Source of the DNA: Flavobacterium sp. IMCC34852
GTDB taxonomy: Bacteria > Bacteroidota > Bacteroidia > Flavobacteriales > Flavobacteriaceae
Direction of reading: 5' to 3'
Assembly (NCBI RefSeq): GCF_030643905.1
Contig: NZ_CP121446.1
Coordinates: 372,001-436,000, forward strand
Length of the DNA stretch: 64,000 nt
The notes beneath the pieces were generated by a model. The model saw nothing but the letters and a program-made list of their open reading frames with translations. It did not search any database and was not told where the DNA came from. Positions 308 to 60,171 of the stretch are shown here, piece by piece (the first letter of the stretch is position 1; each line of letters starts with the position of its first letter). A program made the translations under genes and the position numbers.

Positions 308-1789
308 ATGTCAATTTGGAAAAGAAAACCCATGGCGCTATTATTAGCAGAAGCGTCAGAATCTGAAAAAGGATTGAAAAGAACATTAACCGCTTGGTCT
401 TTGGTTGCCTTGGGAATCGGAGCTATCATTGGCGCCGGTTTATTCGTTAGAACTGCCACTGCTGCTGCTCAAAATGCCGGACCTTCAGTAACCATTGGTT
501 TTATTGTAGCCGCTATCGGTTGTGCTTTAGCCGGATTATGTTATGCCGAATTGTCCTCTTCTATTCCCATTGCCGGAAGTGCTTACACTTACACCTATGC
601 CACTATGGGTGAATTCTTGGCGTGGATCATCGGTTGGGATTTAATTTTAGAATACGCTGTTGGAGCAGCTACTGTAGGTATTGCTTGGAGTGAATACCTC
701 AACAACCTGCTGGTCAATGTGCTCCATGTGAGCCCAATTCCGTATGAGTTTTGTCATTCCCCTTTCCAAACTTCTGTAGATGGCGTTAACGGAATCATCA
801 ATTTACCGGCTTTATTTATTGTTGGAGCCATTAGTTTACTTCTAATCAAAGGAACACAAGAATCCGCTTTTGTAAACGGAATCATTGTCGTTGTGAAAGT
901 GGCTATTGTAGTAATGATTATTGTTTTTGGTTGGAGTTTTATTGATGATGCCAATCATACGCCTTACATTCCTGAACCAAGCGTTTTTACTGATGAACAT
1001 GGAATCGGACATAGTTATGGTGGTATTTTAGGAATTCTCGGTGCTGCGGGAACAGTATTCTTTGCTTTCATCGGATTTGATGCCGTGAGTACAGCCGCTC
1101 AGGAAACCAAAAATCCAAAACGCGATATGCCAATCGGTATTTTAGGCTCATTGGCTATTTGTACCGTTTTGTACATTCTTTTTGCACACGTTTTAACCGG
1201 TTTAGAATCAGTAGAATTCTTCAGAACAGGAGGAAAAGAAGCCTCTGTTGCCAATGCCATTGCTTCAGCAATGCCGGGTTACGAATGGTTAGGTCAGTTT
1301 GTTACTGTGGCCATCTTAGCCGGATTCTCTTCTGTTATTTTGGTAATGTTATTAGGCCAATCGAGAGTTTTCTATTCTATGGGTAATGACGGATTGTTGC
1401 CAAAAGCTTTCAGCGAAGTACATCCTAAATACAAAACACCATACAAAGCCAACTTAGCTATCCTTGTGATTGTAGGCCTTTTTGCTGCCTTTGTTCCCGG
1501 AGATATTGTAGGTGATATGACCAGCATTGGAACCCTATTCGCCTTTATCTTAGTTTGTGTTTCTGTAATTGTTTTAAGAAAAACAGAGCCGAATATGAAA
1601 CGTGAATTCAAAACACCTTTGGTACCATTAGTACCAATATTAGGAATTTTAGTTTGCTTGGCTATGATTTATGGTTTAGGTTGGACCAATTGGTTAAGAC
1701 TACTTGGTTGGTTAGCCCTAGGCTTTATTGTTTACTTTGGTTACAGCAAAAAAAGAAGCAAGCTGAACAACCCAAATAATCAAGAATAA
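308..1789 (+). CDS. APC-superfamily amino-acid permease
   Basis: The 493-residue protein is a multi-spanning inner-membrane transporter of the amino acid-polyamine-organocation superfamily, closest in appearance to the cationic amino-acid transporter (CAT/YfnA) branch. After a hydrophilic N-terminus, residues about 36-46 carry the family motif GIGAIIGAGLF in the first membrane helix, and roughly 12-13 hydrophobic segments follow, ending in a basic tail. The conserved FFAFIGFDAVSTAAQETKNP segment, typical of helix 6 and the following loop in CAT-type members, lies in the middle. It probably imports amino acids by proton coupling; the exact substrate cannot be read. Its own promoter lies just upstream. 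Being next to tyrosine and tryptophan degradation genes makes an aromatic or general amino-acid substrate possible, but that is inference. Confidence 0.85.
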   Translation: MSIWKRKPMALLLAEASESEKGLKRTLTAWSLVALGIGAIIGAGLFVRTATAAAQNAGPSVTIGFIVAAIGCALAGLCYAELSSSIPIAGSAYTYTYATMGEFLAWIIGWDLILEYAVGAATVGIAWSEYLNNLLVNVLHVSPIPYEFCHSPFQTSVDGVNGIINLPALFIVGAISLLLIKGTQESAFVNGIIVVVKVAIVVMIIVFGWSFIDDANHTPYIPEPSVFTDEHGIGHSYGGILGILGAAGTVFFAFIGFDAVSTAAQETKNPKRDMPIGILGSLAICTVLYILFAHVLTGLESVEFFRTGGKEASVANAIASAMPGYEWLGQFVTVAILAGFSSVILVMLLGQSRVFYSMGNDGLLPKAFSEVHPKYKTPYKANLAILVIVGLFAAFVPGDIVGDMTSIGTLFAFILVCVSVIVLRKTEPNMKREFKTPLVPLVPILGILVCLAMIYGLGWTNWLRLLGWLALGFIVYFGYSKKRSKLNNPNNQE

Positions 1790-6644: not shown

Positions 6645-7886
6645 ATGATGTCAAAAATCTTTCGAATCCTTTTTCCGACCTTGGTTGTCCTTTGTTTTGT
6701 AATCTCTTGTGATAAAACAAAAGAAGAACCATTTATGGCAGAAAAGCCCAAACCTAAATTGGTGGATTTTGGCTTTAATCTGCACGATTTTAATGTGGTC
6801 AATGACACTGTAAAATCAGGAGATACTTTCGGAAGCCTTATCGAAAAACAAAACTTAAACGGCAACGAAGTGTATGACATTGTAGCCAAAGTAAGAGACT
6901 CATTTGATGTCAGAAGCATCAGAATAGGCAAACCTTACACCATTCTTCGCAGTAAAAACAAAACCAATAAAATACAGTATTTCATCTACCAACCGGATAG
7001 AATGAACTATTATATCATCGATTTTAGAGATTCGATTGTTGCCCATAAAAAAACAAGACCTTTGACCTTTAAAACGAGAACAATCGCTGGTGCGCTTAAT
7101 GGTTCTTTATCCGAAACCTTGGCCAAAGACAACGTTGATCCGGCATTAGCTTCCAAGATTGCCAAAATTTACGCCTGGTCCATCGACTTCTTCAAGCTCC
7201 AAAAAGGCGATAAATTCGGCTTAACTTTTACCGAACGCTACATTAACGATACTATTTATGATGGCGTTGACAGTTTAAAAGCCTCTTTTTTTGAATACAA
7301 AGGCAAAAAAATTTACGCTTTCCCTTTCTCTCCTAATGAAAATTCGAAAAAACAAGAATACTACGATGAAGAAGGAAAAACTTTAAAAAACTTCTTCCTG
7401 AAAGCACCGTTAAAATTTGTCAATATCACTTCGAGATATTCCCGCAGCCGATTCCATCCCGTACAAAAAAGATGGAAAGCGCACAACGGAACTGATTATG
7501 CAGCGCCAACCGGAACACCAATCATGTCAACCGCTGCCGGCGTAGTAGAACAAGCGGGTTATACCACCGGAAACGGAAATTTTGTCAAAGTAAAACACGA
7601 CCGAACCTATTCCACCCAATACTTACACATGTCCAAAATCTTGGTCCGTCGCGGCCAAAGAGTTACCCAAGGACAAGTTATCGGTAAAGTAGGAAGCACC
7701 GGTTTAGCCACCGGACCGCACGTATGTTATCGCTTCTGGAAAAACGGCGTGCAAGTAGATGCTTTGCGCTTAAAACTACCAACTTCAACACCTATGGATG
7801 CTAAGTACAAACAAAAATTCTTAGAAGTCATTACGCCACTCAAAAAAGTATTGGACAGCACTGCAGAAGCCAAATTCAGAAAATAA
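6645..7886 (+). CDS. M23-family peptidoglycan endopeptidase, lipoprotein
   Basis: The 413-residue protein starts with a signal sequence and lipobox (VLCFVISC, Cys about 23), so it is probably anchored in the membrane facing the periplasm. Residues about 50-90 ([14 protein letters not shown]) look like a LysM/OapA-type cell-wall binding segment. The C-terminal LytM domain has H280 and D284 ([11 protein letters not shown]) and H328 (YLHMSK). The usual final H-x-H appears here as H359-V-C361, so the second histidine, normally a zinc ligand, is replaced by cysteine. Two adjacent ATG codons (6645 and 6648) are possible starts. It is the last gene of the DUF3108-kynA unit and probably trims cell-wall cross-links. 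Confidence 0.88.
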
Positions 7887-21993: not shown

Positions 21994-22022
21994 ATGCCTC
22001 GAAACTTCGGGGCATTTTTTAT
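21994..22022 (+). terminator. Intrinsic terminator before purF
   Basis: ATGCCTCGA (21994-22002) pairs with TCGGGGCAT (22006-22014) with one T-G wobble, loop AAC plus T, then a T-run. Confidence 0.75.
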
Positions 22023-22068
22023 TATAAAATACACGAAACAAACAACTTACAACAACACAACAACAATT

Positions 22069-23967
22069 ATGAGCGACGCAATTAAACACGAATGTGGAAT
22101 CGCCCTTTTAAGATTAAAAAAACCGTTAGCATTCTACAAAGAAAAGTACGGTACGGCTTTTTACGGCATACAAAAAATGTATCTGTTAATGGAAAAGCAA
22201 CACAACCGCGGACAAGATGGCGCCGGTTTTGCTTCGATTAAATTTGATGTCGAGCCCGGAGAAAGATACATCAGCCGCGTGCGCTCGAACAAAGCGCAAC
22301 CGATTCAGGATATCTTTGCCCAAATCAACGAAAGAATTAATGAAGAGCTGTCTTTGCATCCCGAATACCAAGACAACGTTCAATTGCAAAAAGACCACAT
22401 TCCTTACATAGGCGAATTGTTTTTAGGACATGTTCGATACGGAACTTTTGGCAAAAACAGCCTTGAAAGCGTTCACCCTTTTCTACGTCAGAACAACTGG
22501 ATGCACCGAAACCTTATTGTTGCCGGAAATTTCAATATGACTAACGTAACCGAGCTTTTCAATAGTTTGGTAGAATTAGGCCAACATCCAAAAGAAATGG
22601 CAGATACAGTAACCGTTATGGAAAAAATAGGTCATTTCCTCGATGATGAAGTAACCGATTTGTACCAAGAATGTAAAAACAACGGTTTGTCTAAAAGAGA
22701 AGCCTCTCCGGTAATTGCCGAAAAATTAGACCTTGCTAAAATATTAAAACGCGCTTCTAAAGGTTGGGATGGCGGTTATGCCATGGCCGGATTATTAGGT
22801 CACGGCGATAGTTTTGTGTTCCGCGATCCTGCAGGAATTCGTCCGGCTTATTTTTATGAAGATGATGAAATTGTAGTCGTTGCTTCTGAAAGACCGGTGA
22901 TTCAAACTTCTTTCAATGTGCCATTCGAAAAAGTACAAGAATTACAACCCGGTCATGCTTTAATTATCAAGAAAAACGGGAATGTTTCTCAGCAAGAAAT
23001 CATTACACCTACAATTAAAAAAGCTTGTTCGTTTGAACGGATTTATTTTTCTCGTGGCAGTGATGCCGAAATTTATCAAGAGCGAAAAGAATTAGGAAAA
23101 TTGATTTTACCCGCCGTTTTAGAATCAATTGAAAATGATACTGACAATACCGTTTTCTCATTTATTCCGAATACTGCTGAAACTTCTTTCTACGGAATGG
23201 TGGAAGCTGCGAATGATTTTTTGAACCAAAGAAAGAACCAGTTCATTTTGAACAACCGTAAAACATTAACCAAAGAAAAACTGGAAGAAATCCTTTCGGT
23301 CAAAATCAGAACGGAGAAAATTGCCATTAAAGATGCCAAACTGAGAACCTTTATCACCGAAGACAGCAGTCGCGATGATTTGGTAGCGCACGTTTACGAT
23401 GTGACTTATGGCGTAATCAAACCAACAGATAACTTAGTCATCATAGATGACAGCATTGTTCGCGGCACTACTTTGAAGAAAAGCATTTTAAAAATGATGG
23501 ATCGATTGAATCCAAAACGCATTGTTGTGGTTTCTTCTGCACCGCAAATTCGTTATCCGGATTGTTACGGCATTGACATGGCCAAATTAGAAGGCTTAAT
23601 TGCTTTCCAAGCGGCAATTGAATTATTAAAAGAGCGAAATCTTTATAAAATTGTAGACGATGTTTACAAAAAATGTAAATCACAAGAAAAATTAAAAGAT
23701 GCTGATGTGGTGAATTATGTAAACGAAATCTATGCACCGTTCAGCGATACCGAAATTTCGAACAAAATAGCAGCTTTGCTGCATCCGGGCGATATCAATG
23801 CCGAAGTAAAAATCATTTTCCAAACCGTTGACAATTTACATATCGCTTGTCCGAAAAATCTAGGGGATTGGTACTTTACCGGTGACTATCCCACTGCTGG
23901 AGGTAACCGTGTTGTAAACAAGGCATTTATGAATTTTTACGAAGGGAAAGATGCACGTGCTTACTAA
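22069..23967 (+). CDS. purF: Amidophosphoribosyltransferase, long Bacteroidota form
   Basis: PurF starts purine synthesis by making phosphoribosylamine from PRPP and glutamine. The start at ATG 22069 gives MSDAIKHECGIALLRL; the upstream frame runs back into a terminator. C9 is the expected N-terminal nucleophile after removal of a short propeptide. The glutaminase domain shows EKQHNRGQDGAGFAS and LGHVRYGTFG; the phosphoribosyltransferase domain has the PRPP motif VIIDDSIVRGTT (D460-D461). At 632 residues it is longer than the roughly 470-505 residue enzymes of other bacteria, with a C-terminal extension after residue 570 that I recall as usual in this phylum. Confidence 0.92.
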   Translation: MSDAIKHECGIALLRLKKPLAFYKEKYGTAFYGIQKMYLLMEKQHNRGQDGAGFASIKFDVEPGERYISRVRSNKAQPIQDIFAQINERINEELSLHPEYQDNVQLQKDHIPYIGELFLGHVRYGTFGKNSLESVHPFLRQNNWMHRNLIVAGNFNMTNVTELFNSLVELGQHPKEMADTVTVMEKIGHFLDDEVTDLYQECKNNGLSKREASPVIAEKLDLAKILKRASKGWDGGYAMAGLLGHGDSFVFRDPAGIRPAYFYEDDEIVVVASERPVIQTSFNVPFEKVQELQPGHALIIKKNGNVSQQEIITPTIKKACSFERIYFSRGSDAEIYQERKELGKLILPAVLESIENDTDNTVFSFIPNTAETSFYGMVEAANDFLNQRKNQFILNNRKTLTKEKLEEILSVKIRTEKIAIKDAKLRTFITEDSSRDDLVAHVYDVTYGVIKPTDNLVIIDDSIVRGTTLKKSILKMMDRLNPKRIVVVSSAPQIRYPDCYGIDMAKLEGLIAFQAAIELLKERNLYKIVDDVYKKCKSQEKLKDADVVNYVNEIYAPFSDTEISNKIAALLHPGDINAEVKIIFQTVDNLHIACPKNLGDWYFTGDYPTAGGNRVVNKAFMNFYEGKDARAY

Positions 23968-24021
23968 AATTTTAACATTTTTTGTCTTTAAACGATTTTT
24001 GATGCAGTTCATCTGAATTTT

Positions 24022-24053
24022 TTGTTTTAAAATTGTTAATCAACTTACATTTG
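24022..24053 (+). promoter_or_regulatory. Promoter of tandem RNA unit 1
   Basis: TTG (24022-24024), 21 bases, then TACATTTG (24046-24053), a complete Bacteroidota promoter ending about five bases before the first conserved RNA base. Confidence 0.65.
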
Positions 24054-24057
24054 ACTT

Positions 24058-24132
24058 TACCATAGCATTAGTAGGTTAAGTTTATGGTAGATTTGGGGCA
24101 AAAAGGGTGAAAAGAAATTTTCACCTTTTTTA
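24058..24132 (+). ncRNA. Tandem small RNA, unit 1
   Basis: The unit opens with TACCATA (24058-24064), which pairs with TATGGTA (24083-24089) around an 18-base loop containing TAGGTTAAGTT. A conserved single-stranded stretch GATTTGGGGCAAA follows, then a terminator hairpin GGTGAAAA/TTTTCACC (24106-24113 with 24118-24125) with a T-run. The predicted RNA is about 75 nt. Family unknown to me. Confidence 0.7.
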
Positions 24133-24252
24133 TTTTCTACCCTCTTGAAATCCAACACCAAAGACCAATCTTTGATAAATCAACAAAAAAGGATTTTAAC
24201 GATTAAAATAGCTATTCGTCTATTTTTTTTTTAAAACACATACTTTCTCCTA

Positions 24253-24260
24253 TACATTTG
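24253..24260 (+). promoter_or_regulatory. -7 element of tandem RNA unit 2
   Basis: TACATTTG, identical to that of unit 1, ends three bases before the conserved RNA start. No TTG at proper spacing upstream, only a T-run. Confidence 0.55.
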
Positions 24261-24263
24261 AAG

Positions 24264-24338
24264 TACCATAGCATTAGTAGGTTAAGTTTATGGTAGATTT
24301 GGGGCAAAAAGGGCGAAAAGAAATTTTCGCCTTTTTTA
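24264..24338 (+). ncRNA. Tandem small RNA, unit 2
   Basis: The 5' stem (24264-24270 with 24289-24295), its 18-base loop and the GATTTGGGGCAAA stretch are identical to unit 1. The terminator stem differs by a compensated change: GGCGAAAA/TTTTCGCC (24312-24319 with 24324-24331), where T-A of unit 1 is C-G. This covariation argues for selection on RNA structure. Confidence 0.7.
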
Positions 24339-24443
24339 TTTTCTACCGGCCTGAAAGTCACTAAAAAAACAGATTTCACTCTCATTTGCCTATCATTCCA
24401 ATATAATTTCATTAAAAAAGCACGATATTCTATTTGATGTTAT

Positions 24444-24451
24444 TAGATTTG
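24444..24451 (+). promoter_or_regulatory. -7 element of tandem RNA unit 3
   Basis: TAGATTTG matches TAnnTTTG and ends three bases before the conserved RNA start at 24455. Confidence 0.5.
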
Positions 24452-24454
24452 CGT

Positions 24455-24532
24455 TACCATAGTATTTAGTGTAGGTTAAGTTTATGGTAGATTTGGGGCA
24501 AACAGGTGGAAGCAATTCCGCCTGTTTATTTT
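24455..24532 (+). ncRNA. Tandem small RNA, unit 3
   Basis: The same TACCATA/TATGGTA stem (24455-24461 with 24483-24489) encloses a 21-base loop that keeps TAGGTTAAGTT but differs on its 5' side. GATTTGGGGCAAA is kept. The terminator stem has an entirely different sequence, ACAGGTGGAA/TTCCGCCTGT (24502-24511 with 24516-24525), closed by a GCAA tetraloop, while structure is preserved. Confidence 0.68.
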
Positions 24533-24600: not shown

Positions 24601-25209
24601 TTATTTTTCTGTAGCATATAATCTGGCCACTTCTGTCCAGTTGATTACATTAAAGAAAGCTTCAATATAATCTGGACGACGGTTTTGATAGTGTAAGTAG
24701 TAAGCGTGTTCCCAAACATCCATTCCTAAGATTGGAAATCCGCCACAAGCTGTATCAGGCATCAAAGGATTGTCTTGGTTTGGTGTAGAACATACTTCCA
24801 ACTTTCCTCCTTTGTGTACACAAAGCCAAGCCCAACCAGAACCGAAACGTGTAGCACCGGCTTTGGCAAATTGCGCTTTGAACTCTTCAAACGATTTAAA
24901 ATCTCTTTCAATTGCTTCAGCTAATTCGCCTGTTGGCAATCCGCCGCCATTTGGCGACATTACTCTCCAAAACAAATTGTGGTTGTAAAATCCGCCACCG
25001 TTATTTCTAACGGCTGCATTTTTCATATCTAAATTGATTAAGATATTTTCAATAGTTAAACCTTCCAAATCTGTTCCGGCAATAGCTGCGTTTAGATTAG
25101 TTGTGTAAGCATTGTGATGTTTTGAATGGTGTATTTCCATCGTTCTGGCATCAATATGTGGTTCTAAAGCATCGTATGCATAAGGTAATTGCGGTAATTC
25201 AAAAGCCAT
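24601..25209 (-). CDS. sodA: Superoxide dismutase (Fe/Mn family, Mn-like signature)
   Basis: The enzyme disproportionates superoxide to oxygen and hydrogen peroxide in the cytosol. In the 202-residue protein the metal ligands are H27 (MEIHHSKHH), H77 (FYNHNLFW), D164 and H168 ([10 protein letters not shown]). The second-sphere glutamine Q145 in STPNQDNPL and the GGG before H77 fit the Mn-type rather than the Fe-type pattern, though cambialistic use cannot be excluded. It has a -7 promoter element and a terminator of its own. The three small-RNA units lie directly downstream, on the opposite strand. Confidence 0.96.
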
Positions 25210-59286: not shown

Positions 59287-60171
59287 ATGAGCCACACTTA
59301 CATAATTATTGATGACAACCAAGACGATGTCACGAAAACTCAGGCTATAGCTGAGCGCTTTCGTAACCTCTCATTTGTCGCATCGGCCAATAGTTATGAC
59401 GAAGGTGTTAACTTAATCTTAGAACACCAACCTCATCTTGTTTTTCTTGAAATTGACCCTTCGGATAAAAAGAGTAATTTATCCTTAGCCTTAATTAATG
59501 AATTGTATCGTTATTTGAGTGTTGTTCCCAAAATCATTATCATTACGGCCAAAAAGGATTTGGCTTATGAAGCCTTGAAATATGAAGTCGTTGATTATTT
59601 GTTAAAACCATTAGACATTAATGATTTCAGAAAAGCAATTTTAAAATTCGACCGTGCTATTAAATCTGATTTGCCACACATGGAAGTCAAAAATCCGGCG
59701 GCTACTTTTGAAGTCTTGGATGAAACCATAACGGAAGAATTAGAAACTGCCGAACACGATGTGGAAGTAAAAACCATACCTATAACTGCCGAAACACCGG
59801 TAATCGTTCAGAAACAGCAATCGTTGGTAATTTGTATAAAATCTTATGGCGATTACCGCTATATTGACTCCAATGATGTGCTTTATTTTGAAGCCGACAA
59901 CAACTCTACCGATATACATTTGAATAATGGTGAAATGATTACGGCGTTCAAGACTTTGAAACATTTTGAAACGGTTTTACCGCAAACCCAATTCCTTCGT
60001 ATTCATAACAGTTACATTATTAATGTCGACCAGGTTTCTAGGATTCACACCGGAAATACGGTTTGTTATATTAAAAACTCTACCACCAAATTACCGTTCT
60101 CCAAATCTTATAAAGACAATGTTGATTTGATTATTACTCGCATCGCCGGCGGAAATTATTTGGAAATATAG
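59287..60171 (+). CDS. LytTR-family response regulator with atypical receiver
   Basis: The 294-residue protein has an N-terminal receiver domain (IIIDDNQDDVTKT, switch threonine in IIIITAKKD, lysine in DYLLKPLD) and a C-terminal LytTR DNA-binding domain from about residue 180 (SLVICIKSYGDYRYIDSNDV to KLPFSKSYKDNVD), linked by an acidic stretch. The usual phospho-accepting aspartate is glutamate here (E55 in LVFLEIDPSD), although D57 is two residues away. It may therefore be always active or signal-independent. It is the first gene of a group with a NarL-type regulator and a sensor kinase. Confidence 0.88.
   Translation: MSHTYIIIDDNQDDVTKTQAIAERFRNLSFVASANSYDEGVNLILEHQPHLVFLEIDPSDKKSNLSLALINELYRYLSVVPKIIIITAKKDLAYEALKYEVVDYLLKPLDINDFRKAILKFDRAIKSDLPHMEVKNPAATFEVLDETITEELETAEHDVEVKTIPITAETPVIVQKQQSLVICIKSYGDYRYIDSNDVLYFEADNNSTDIHLNNGEMITAFKTLKHFETVLPQTQFLRIHNSYIINVDQVSRIHTGNTVCYIKNSTTKLPFSKSYKDNVDLIITRIAGGNYLEI

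Follow-up and report, generated by a model that had tools for sequence, protein, structure and literature searches.

Three small RNA units between purF and sodA

The window that we analysed is a stretch of 64,000 nucleotides of the genome of Flavobacterium sp. IMCC34852. Between purF and the facing sodA there is an array of three units of about 75 nt, spaced 206 and 191 bp apart (Table 1). Each unit has a box of the sigma-A type, TAnnTTTG, lying 3-4 nt ahead of TACCATA in all three cases, followed by a 5′ hairpin (ACCAUA...UAUGGU), the constant sequence GUAGGUUAAGUUUAUGGUAGAUUUGGGGCAAA and a terminator. TAnnTTTG is described as the sigma-A box of F. psychrophilum in the available text of PMC9723704. 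The original prediction, made from the letters of the window alone, had reported three units with this spacing, the -7 boxes and a constant TAGGTTAAGTTTATGGTAGATTTGGGGCAAA, and all are present as claimed. The units thus carry the signals of an own promoter and of an intrinsic terminator, as far as sequence signals go. Segment A is shorter in unit 3 than in units 1 and 2. The Pfam match of the upstream neighbour to class II glutamine amidotransferase is consistent with purF.

An exact 32-mer of the units occurs only three times in the 3.17-Mb genome, once in each unit, and the 26-nt core with up to three mismatches is found three times in the window, where 0.00 occurrences are expected.

Table 1. 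The array and its neighbours in the window. The first position of each sRNA unit is its predicted start.
Feature	Positions	Strand	Description
purF, upstream neighbour	21994..23967	+	ORF; glutamine amidotransferase class II, 20.4 bits against a Pfam cut-off of 19.9 (just over)
Upstream site, unit 1	23987..24015	+	TTTAAACGA (23987-23995) and AGTTCATCTG (24006-24015), LytTR-like half-sites about 20 bp apart; from sequence
-7 promoter box, unit 1	24046..24053	+	TACATTTG; from sequence
sRNA unit 1	24059..24134	+	5′ hairpin, constant core, terminator 24100-24131; covariance model 95.2 bits (unit 1 itself being among the sequences that built the model); fold z -3.45
Segment A, unit 1	24069..24082	+	TAGTAGGTTAAGTT, complement of the CAP start region
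Segment B, unit 1	24087..24102	+	GTAGATTTGGGGCAAA, complement (1 mismatch) of the CAP leader hairpin
Upstream site, unit 2	24194..24221	+	TTTTAACGA (24194-24202) and TATTCGTCT (24213-24221); from sequence
-7 promoter box, unit 2	24253..24260	+	TACATTTG; from sequence
sRNA unit 2	24265..24340	+	Terminator 24306-24337; segment A 24275-24288; segment B 24293-24308; covariance model 95 bits; fold z -3.69
Upstream site, unit 3 (weak)	24406..24414	+	ATTTCATTA; TTCATT 36 bp ahead of the -7 box
-7 promoter box, unit 3	24444..24451	+	TAGATTTG; from sequence
sRNA unit 3	24456..24530	+	Terminator 24500-24528; segment A 24471-24482; segment B 24487-24502; covariance model 77.6 bits; fold z -5.28
sodA, convergent downstream neighbour	24601..25209	-	ORF; Sod_Fe_N and Sod_Fe_C

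Secondary structure and covariation

Fold prediction gives two stem-loops in each of the three units, with 7-8 bp in the outer stem of the 5′ hairpin. When each sequence was shuffled 200 times, only 0, 1 and 0 of the shuffles folded as well as units 1, 2 and 3, respectively. It had been proposed that the terminator stems change in sequence while remaining paired, and this is seen in all three units. The comparison was extended by pair counting to 34 of 46 units, leaving aside eight identical and four of the 38 distinct ones, and with some row ends set by hand. In this set 95.8% of cells are paired, a value reached by none of 500 shuffles, and pairing drops to 43-64% in the slid controls. Six pairs have changes on both sides, five in the terminator and one in the 5′ stem. 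None of the 500 shuffles reaches six; however, the control slid by -1 has eight such pairs (and 20 further pair types against 19), so the count of doubly changed pairs is not decisive by itself. Further rows (L042 and L147) pair ACTATA with TATAGT, which gives the 5′ stem another matched change. The core is nearly invariant across the family.

Distribution of the RNA and its genomic context

Homologues with preserved stems, on whose existence the original prediction had staked itself, are widespread. The covariance-model search that it called for, with a model built from 34 units, found the family in 240 of the 299 Flavobacteriaceae genomes sampled. In a sample drawn from the whole class, ten of 295 genomes match, six of them from the genus of the window (77.6 to 102.6 bits); in the same sample three genomes of the family are listed without a match to the model. 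The other four matches are weak, at 34-40 bits, and lie outside the family (G697, G760, G774 and G828). The 29-nt core with up to three mismatches is present in 26 of 60 genomes including our own, all of the same genus, and lies just 3′ of purF in all 26 loci read.

A further set of named loci comes from a scan of contigs with one exact 19-mer, and the counts that follow hold among the matches listed. These loci span Aquimarina, Winogradskyella, Formosa, Salinimicrobium, Lacinutrix, Aequorivita and many species of Flavobacterium. At 107 of the 118 loci purF lies just upstream, or sodA faces the units, or both. The 95 loci with purF upstream have one copy (37 loci), two (40), three (10) or four (8), with neighbouring copies separated by a median of 197 bp (86 intervals). 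Four of the other 11 loci are complementary leaders and not sRNA units; in two of the remaining seven (L093 and L111) the purF side is out of view. The last five, L035, L041, L074, L081 and L140, each have a single sRNA copy and no purF, with that side in view. At L105, a metagenome-assembled genome labelled Lentimicrobium carries two sRNA copies, sodA and a purF that is 86% identical to that of the window; the label looks wrong.

An upstream promoter element

The original prediction held that conservation is confined to the transcript and the -7 box. This is not the case. A site upstream of the promoter recurs at a fixed distance: TTYRWC is found between -42 and -35 in 178 of 232 distinct units. 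These come from the 239 of 250 core sites that have a -7 box and sufficient upstream sequence. Aligned on the -7 box, TTYRWC begins at -37 in 142 units and at -57 in 103, with -38 (31) and -58 (20) as neighbouring offsets; every other offset is used five times or fewer. In the window, units 1 and 2 have TTAAAC/TTAACG about 57-58 bp and TTCATC/TTCGTC about 38 bp ahead of the -7 box, and unit 3 has a weak version only. Separate control of the copies in the array is only hinted at by this weak site.

Promoters controlled by LytTR proteins have two direct half-sites of about 9 bp, approximately two helical turns apart. Forms of the upstream element such as ACCGTTCGTC (L145) resemble the AlgR consensus, given as CCGTTCGTC in the available text of PMC4064291. 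The 20-bp repeat together with this resemblance suggests a regulator of the LytTR family, and we regard the chances that the sRNA promoters are controlled by a protein of this type as about even. There are five LytTR matches in the genome. One (L306, approximately 744-1627) is a LytTR response regulator whose gene diverges from one that, from the look of its sequence, we take to be rpsF-like; the promoter element lies between the two, and this response regulator is a candidate. Within the window, a LytTR-domain response regulator at 59287-60171 (+) is followed by a second gene resembling a response regulator.

Complementarity to the leader of a CAP-domain mRNA

Prediction of targets with the constant segment, as had been suggested, led to the leader of a CAP-domain mRNA. 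The genome has two copies of a gene for a CAP-domain protein (PF00188), which we take to be a lipoprotein from its signal sequence and lipobox. The two proteins are identical, and both leaders are complementary to both constant parts of the sRNA. In the leader, two bases separate the end of AACUUAACCUACUA from the start codon, and two copies of UUUGCCCCACAUCUAC lie upstream. With up to two mismatches, the complement of segment A is found in the whole genome only in units 1 and 2 and in the two CAP start regions, AACTTAACCTACTACTA. If three mismatches are allowed, the total is 16, fewer than the 35 of the reversed control, and meaning can be given to the best segment A sites alone. The complement of segment B occurs, apart from the three units, at four sites with two mismatches in the two CAP leaders and at one at L197; with up to three mismatches there are 30 matches against six in the control. 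The duplex with the CAP leader has a predicted energy of -46.5 kcal/mol for units 1 and 2, where the duplex takes in the nearer segment B site and reaches as far as the start codon, and of -43.9 kcal/mol for unit 3.

It had been proposed that the units are sRNAs that act in trans from several copies and turn their constant GGTTAAGTTTATGG and GATTTGGGGC towards a target. This is borne out to the extent that both parts complement adjoining sites in one conserved mRNA leader, beside the start codon. Conserved complementarity to an mRNA encoded elsewhere, as expected of a trans-acting base-pairing sRNA, is present.

Conservation of the pairing

We read 30 loci with 33 CAP leaders among the 84 CAP-positive genomes of the genus, and 28 loci among 137 CAP-positive genomes of other genera, from which 27 leaders passed our filters. 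As controls we took 650 start regions, each belonging to a predicted ORF 100 codons or longer within the 118 named loci; most of them lie close to purF. The median duplex energy is -43.4 for the genus leaders against -17.8 for controls, and -25.1 for those of other genera against -17.4. The lowest control values are -31.8 (genus) and -33.5 (other genera), and the means for shuffled sRNAs are -15.1 and -16.1. The difference between leaders and controls has p = 2e-20 in the genus and 3e-15 in other genera, values that overstate the certainty since relatives are not independent. Duplex energies of the genus leaders are widely separated from the controls; those of other genera come closer to them but are still clearly distinct.

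Individual sites were scored as well. Of the genus leaders, 15 of 33 combine CCAAATCT or TTTGCCCC with a second seed, as do 14 of 27 leaders from other genera and none of 650 controls; a simple test for the second seed is passed by 18/33, 19/27 and 32/650, respectively. Within the genus TTTGCCCC is present in 28 of the 33 leaders, lying in a small hairpin followed mostly by a CTTAACCTACT-like sequence and then ATG. It is found in none of the 27 leaders from other genera, where CCAAATCT (14/27) and the second seed (19/27) lie near the start codon, as in CCAAATCTAAATTTAACTTAACCTATG of L336; in some of these leaders, e.g. L323, pairing can include the AUG. The hairpin site is absent from two genus leaders and altered in two more (L282 and L288), and in eight others (L286, L289, L290, L293 and L295-L298) the hairpin site is kept but the one beside the start codon is decayed.

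CCCC is unpaired (mean over 0.7) in all 29 genus leaders that hold it. A strict test, which required the whole of GCCCC to be unpaired in the loop, was passed by one genus leader of 33, L282, which lacks a proper site; the printed folds attribute the failure of the other 32 mainly to weak pairing of the G. The pattern TTAACCTACTN{0,8}ATGA was not enriched in 121 genomes of the genus (38 matches against 77 for the reversed control, by our own tally), and 11 of the 31 places read were CAP starts.

Co-occurrence and a shared promoter element

Among 37 genomes of the genus, 25 have both the sRNA and the CAP gene, one the sRNA only, one the CAP gene only and ten neither. The corresponding numbers for 198 genomes of the family sample are 132, 30, 6 and 30. 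The association has p = 3e-7 in the genus and 2e-13 in the family sample, the certainty again being overstated by the relatedness of the genomes. The 30 genomes, out of 162 bearing the sRNA, in which no CAP homologue was found indicate that either other targets exist or homologues were missed.

The upstream element is found in the CAP promoters too. Using a loosened -7 box, the distance from site to box is 37 bp in 18 and 38 bp in nine of 32 regions from the genus, and 38 bp in 11 and 39 bp in seven of 27 regions from other genera. A site at 37-39 bp occurs in 12 of 634 control regions; in the sRNA promoters the distance is 37/38. Because both promoters have the element, and have it equally far from the -7 box, it is likely that one regulator serves the sRNA and the CAP gene. 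The element of the CAP promoter, ATTTCATCGATTTTATTTG, has 20 matches in the genome (L300-L319) against two for the reversed control. The places include both CAP genes, the rpsF-like gene and three genes for probable secreted proteins, whose signal peptides we presume from the look of the sequences; the remaining 14 of the 20 have no clear arrangement of this kind.

A second leader and further possible targets

At the four named loci that are not sRNA units (L051, L082, L092 and L119), the strand opposite a neighbouring ABC-transporter gene carries a near-complete complement of the sRNA just before an ORF of 41 codons. The duplex with this leader is predicted at -51.4 to -55.5 kcal/mol, a further partial complement lies inside the ORF, and the upstream element is also recognisable in the sequence. 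As the exact 19-mer selected these loci, their strong pairing is no surprise, whereas the presence and position of the ORF and the presence of the element did not follow from the selection. We had taken these elements for sponge RNAs, and rejected this in favour of the leader of an ORF that is open for 41 codons in all four loci. Its second codon position differs least in six of six pairs, although the third does not consistently exceed the first, and a protein search found one homologue. The ORF is probably a second target; its status as coding sequence is less sure. The names ABC-transporter ATPase, scoB and those of their neighbours are presumptive, being given from the look of the sequences.

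At L253 and L267, TTAACCTACT lies, in two genomes, just before the start of similar frames of at least 501 codons (with NPERGFYRY or NPDRGFYRY), with duplexes of -37.9 and -32.1 kcal/mol; these are a possible further target. Another possible one is at L248: AAAACTTAACCTACTGAACTATG stands before a frame of 443 aa whose start resembles a signal sequence, and the duplex has -34.8 kcal/mol.

A model for regulation of the CAP gene

The computed family, anatomy, complementarity, its conservation and the shared element make it highly probable, in our judgement, that the units are an independently transcribed, multicopy trans-acting sRNA that blocks initiation of translation on the CAP mRNA, and that would likely be controlled together with the CAP gene; its transcription, direction of action and regulator we infer. 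One regulator, perhaps of the LytTR type, would turn on the sRNA and the CAP gene together. Segment A (UAGUAGGUUAAGUU, the loop of the hairpin with its flanks) would pair just before the start codon of the CAP mRNA, and segment B (GUAGAUUUGGGGCAAA, the stretch that links the hairpin to the terminator) with UUUGCCCC presented by the small leader hairpin. Segment B would contact the CCCC of this hairpin, the duplex would spread, and the long duplex formed by both segments would leave the ribosome unable to start translation. Of the possible directions of regulation, repression is the likeliest, given that the duplex lies right beside the start codon, and we hold it to be likely.

The sRNA might instead be a positive regulator, with pairing in the leader protecting the CAP mRNA from decay or remodelling it so that translation rises. 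The promoters of target and sRNA have the same element at the same distance, and both RNAs may be needed together; moreover, deletion of Rfp18 in F. psychrophilum lowered two of its target mRNAs, according to the accessible part of PMC9723704. Yet the duplex covers the bases just before the AUG, and may include the AUG itself in L323. The CAP start regions are only moderately open without the sRNA, with a median of 0.67 unpaired; taken together they are more open than closed, although not every leader is (minimum 0.25). We consider activation unlikely.

Somewhat less likely still is that the CAP leader acts as a sponge, titrating the sRNA away from other main targets. This would account for the two hairpin sites in the leader of our genome, and it fits with the 30 sRNA-positive genomes out of 162 in which no CAP homologue was found and with the second strongly complementary leader at four loci. 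But a sponge would not require pairing to be placed at the start codon, as it is in many leaders of this and other genera, and searches of our genome with the pattern of both segments found no comparable second mRNA, short seeds being beyond their reach. We consider it very improbable that the units bind and sequester a protein, the match in the CAP leader reflecting the same protein site: a core nearly invariant over the family would suit such a role, but the CAP leaders carry its reverse complement and not the same sequence. That the units are terminators of purF, debris of its 3′ untranslated region or short leader peptides is hardly credible, for although purF immediately precedes most of them, the -7 box is in place at 239 of 250 core sites, the upstream site is also conserved, and units occur without purF at five of the 118 named loci among the matches listed, with that side in view. 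A short coding frame starting at the ATG in the core was rejected, since the frame ends vary between copies and the core is unchanged at all codon positions.

Translational repression of the CAP mRNA by the sRNA could be part of a feed-forward circuit found across the family, a tentative extension that may well not hold. In this, one LytTR-type regulator would drive the array and its targets. Contact would be reciprocal and at two points, the hairpin loop of the sRNA meeting the open start region and its open linker meeting the hairpin loop of the mRNA, with the numbers of sRNA copies and leader hairpins setting a threshold or a pulse of CAP expression. In some genera the gene for the 41-residue protein, with its two complementary sites upstream of and inside the ORF, would be wired in the same manner.

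Flavobacteriaceae are central to the breakdown of polymers in the sea, soil and fresh water, and to our knowledge few pairs of sRNA and target are known from them. The sRNA described here occurs in the majority of the family's genomes that were sampled. Its target is predicted, with contact at two defined sites, it shares a promoter element with that target and its copies stand in tandem, so the system can be tested directly. It would provide a model of control by base pairing in bacteria whose translation mostly starts with no Shine-Dalgarno sequence, and a clue to what the CAP protein does.

Comparison with known RNAs

No Rfam family matches in the window at gathering score, nor at the arrays or leaders of 18 loci from relatives. 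The original prediction could not assign the units to a known family, and this stands after specific tests against FopS and Flavo-1. We found no report of the array in Rfam or in the literature searched, which was mostly without subscription journals. Candidate sRNAs have been reported in F. columnare (PMC5395568, available text). Multicopy trans-acting sRNAs are a known kind, whereas the family, target and wiring appear new.

The closest parallel in kind is with the multicopy sRNAs Qrr, LhrC and the Cia-dependent sRNAs, which like the array have near-identical copies acting on shared targets, in other phyla, and with FopS (RF04319), paralogous multicopy sRNAs of about 70 nt from Bacteroides that pair at the start regions of their targets (both from the available portion of PMC11697453). 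FopS shares with the array its occurrence in Bacteroidota, multicopy paralogues, promoters of the sigma-A type, a terminator and pairing at the mRNA start. As described there, FopS pairs through a single-stranded seed in its 5′ part, with targets of the SusC type (PMC11697453), and binding by RbpB is a further mark of it; the array differs in its 5′ hairpin, its second pairing segment, the CAP-protein mRNA as target and its tandem copies at one locus. Identity with FopS was rejected, the units scoring 17.7, 20.2 and 22.1 bits against a gathering cut-off of 56. Homology was rejected too: there are weak full-length matches, and AUUAG and AGGUUAA can be matched by eye, but the 5′ similarity is reached by 1178, 1200 and 294 of 2000 shuffles. 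Nor do the units have the FopS layout of a single-stranded 5′ part followed by a terminator, as they fold a 5′ hairpin.

Rfp18 of F. psychrophilum is, like the array, a structured Flavobacterium sRNA kept across the genus; it is linked to secreted proteins and acts on protease mRNAs, pairing with those of metalloproteases through its third stem-loop (PMC9723704, available text). Each unit of the array has two stem-loops, a layout that pairing through a third one does not suit. In this the array differs from Rfp18 as described, although the two may yet prove to be the same RNA. Flavo-1 (RF01705), likewise an RNA of Flavobacteria, was checked as had been proposed, and the array is not Flavo-1: there was no match at the gathering score of 42 bits or at E 10, and the model does find Flavo-1 in L063 and L144. 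In these two loci Flavo-1 RNAs above the Rfam cut-off lie about 4 kb from an sRNA unit, at 496-595 (-) and 7547-7630 (-), respectively.

When the FopS model was run on 247 genomes of the phylum, four matched at E 0.01, of which two passed the cut-off; none was of the genus of the window. Beyond the two genomes above the cut-off, FopS-like RNAs that score below it are found at L184 (G053, of the same order) with 43.9 bits and at L185 (G444, of the same class) with 36.4 bits.
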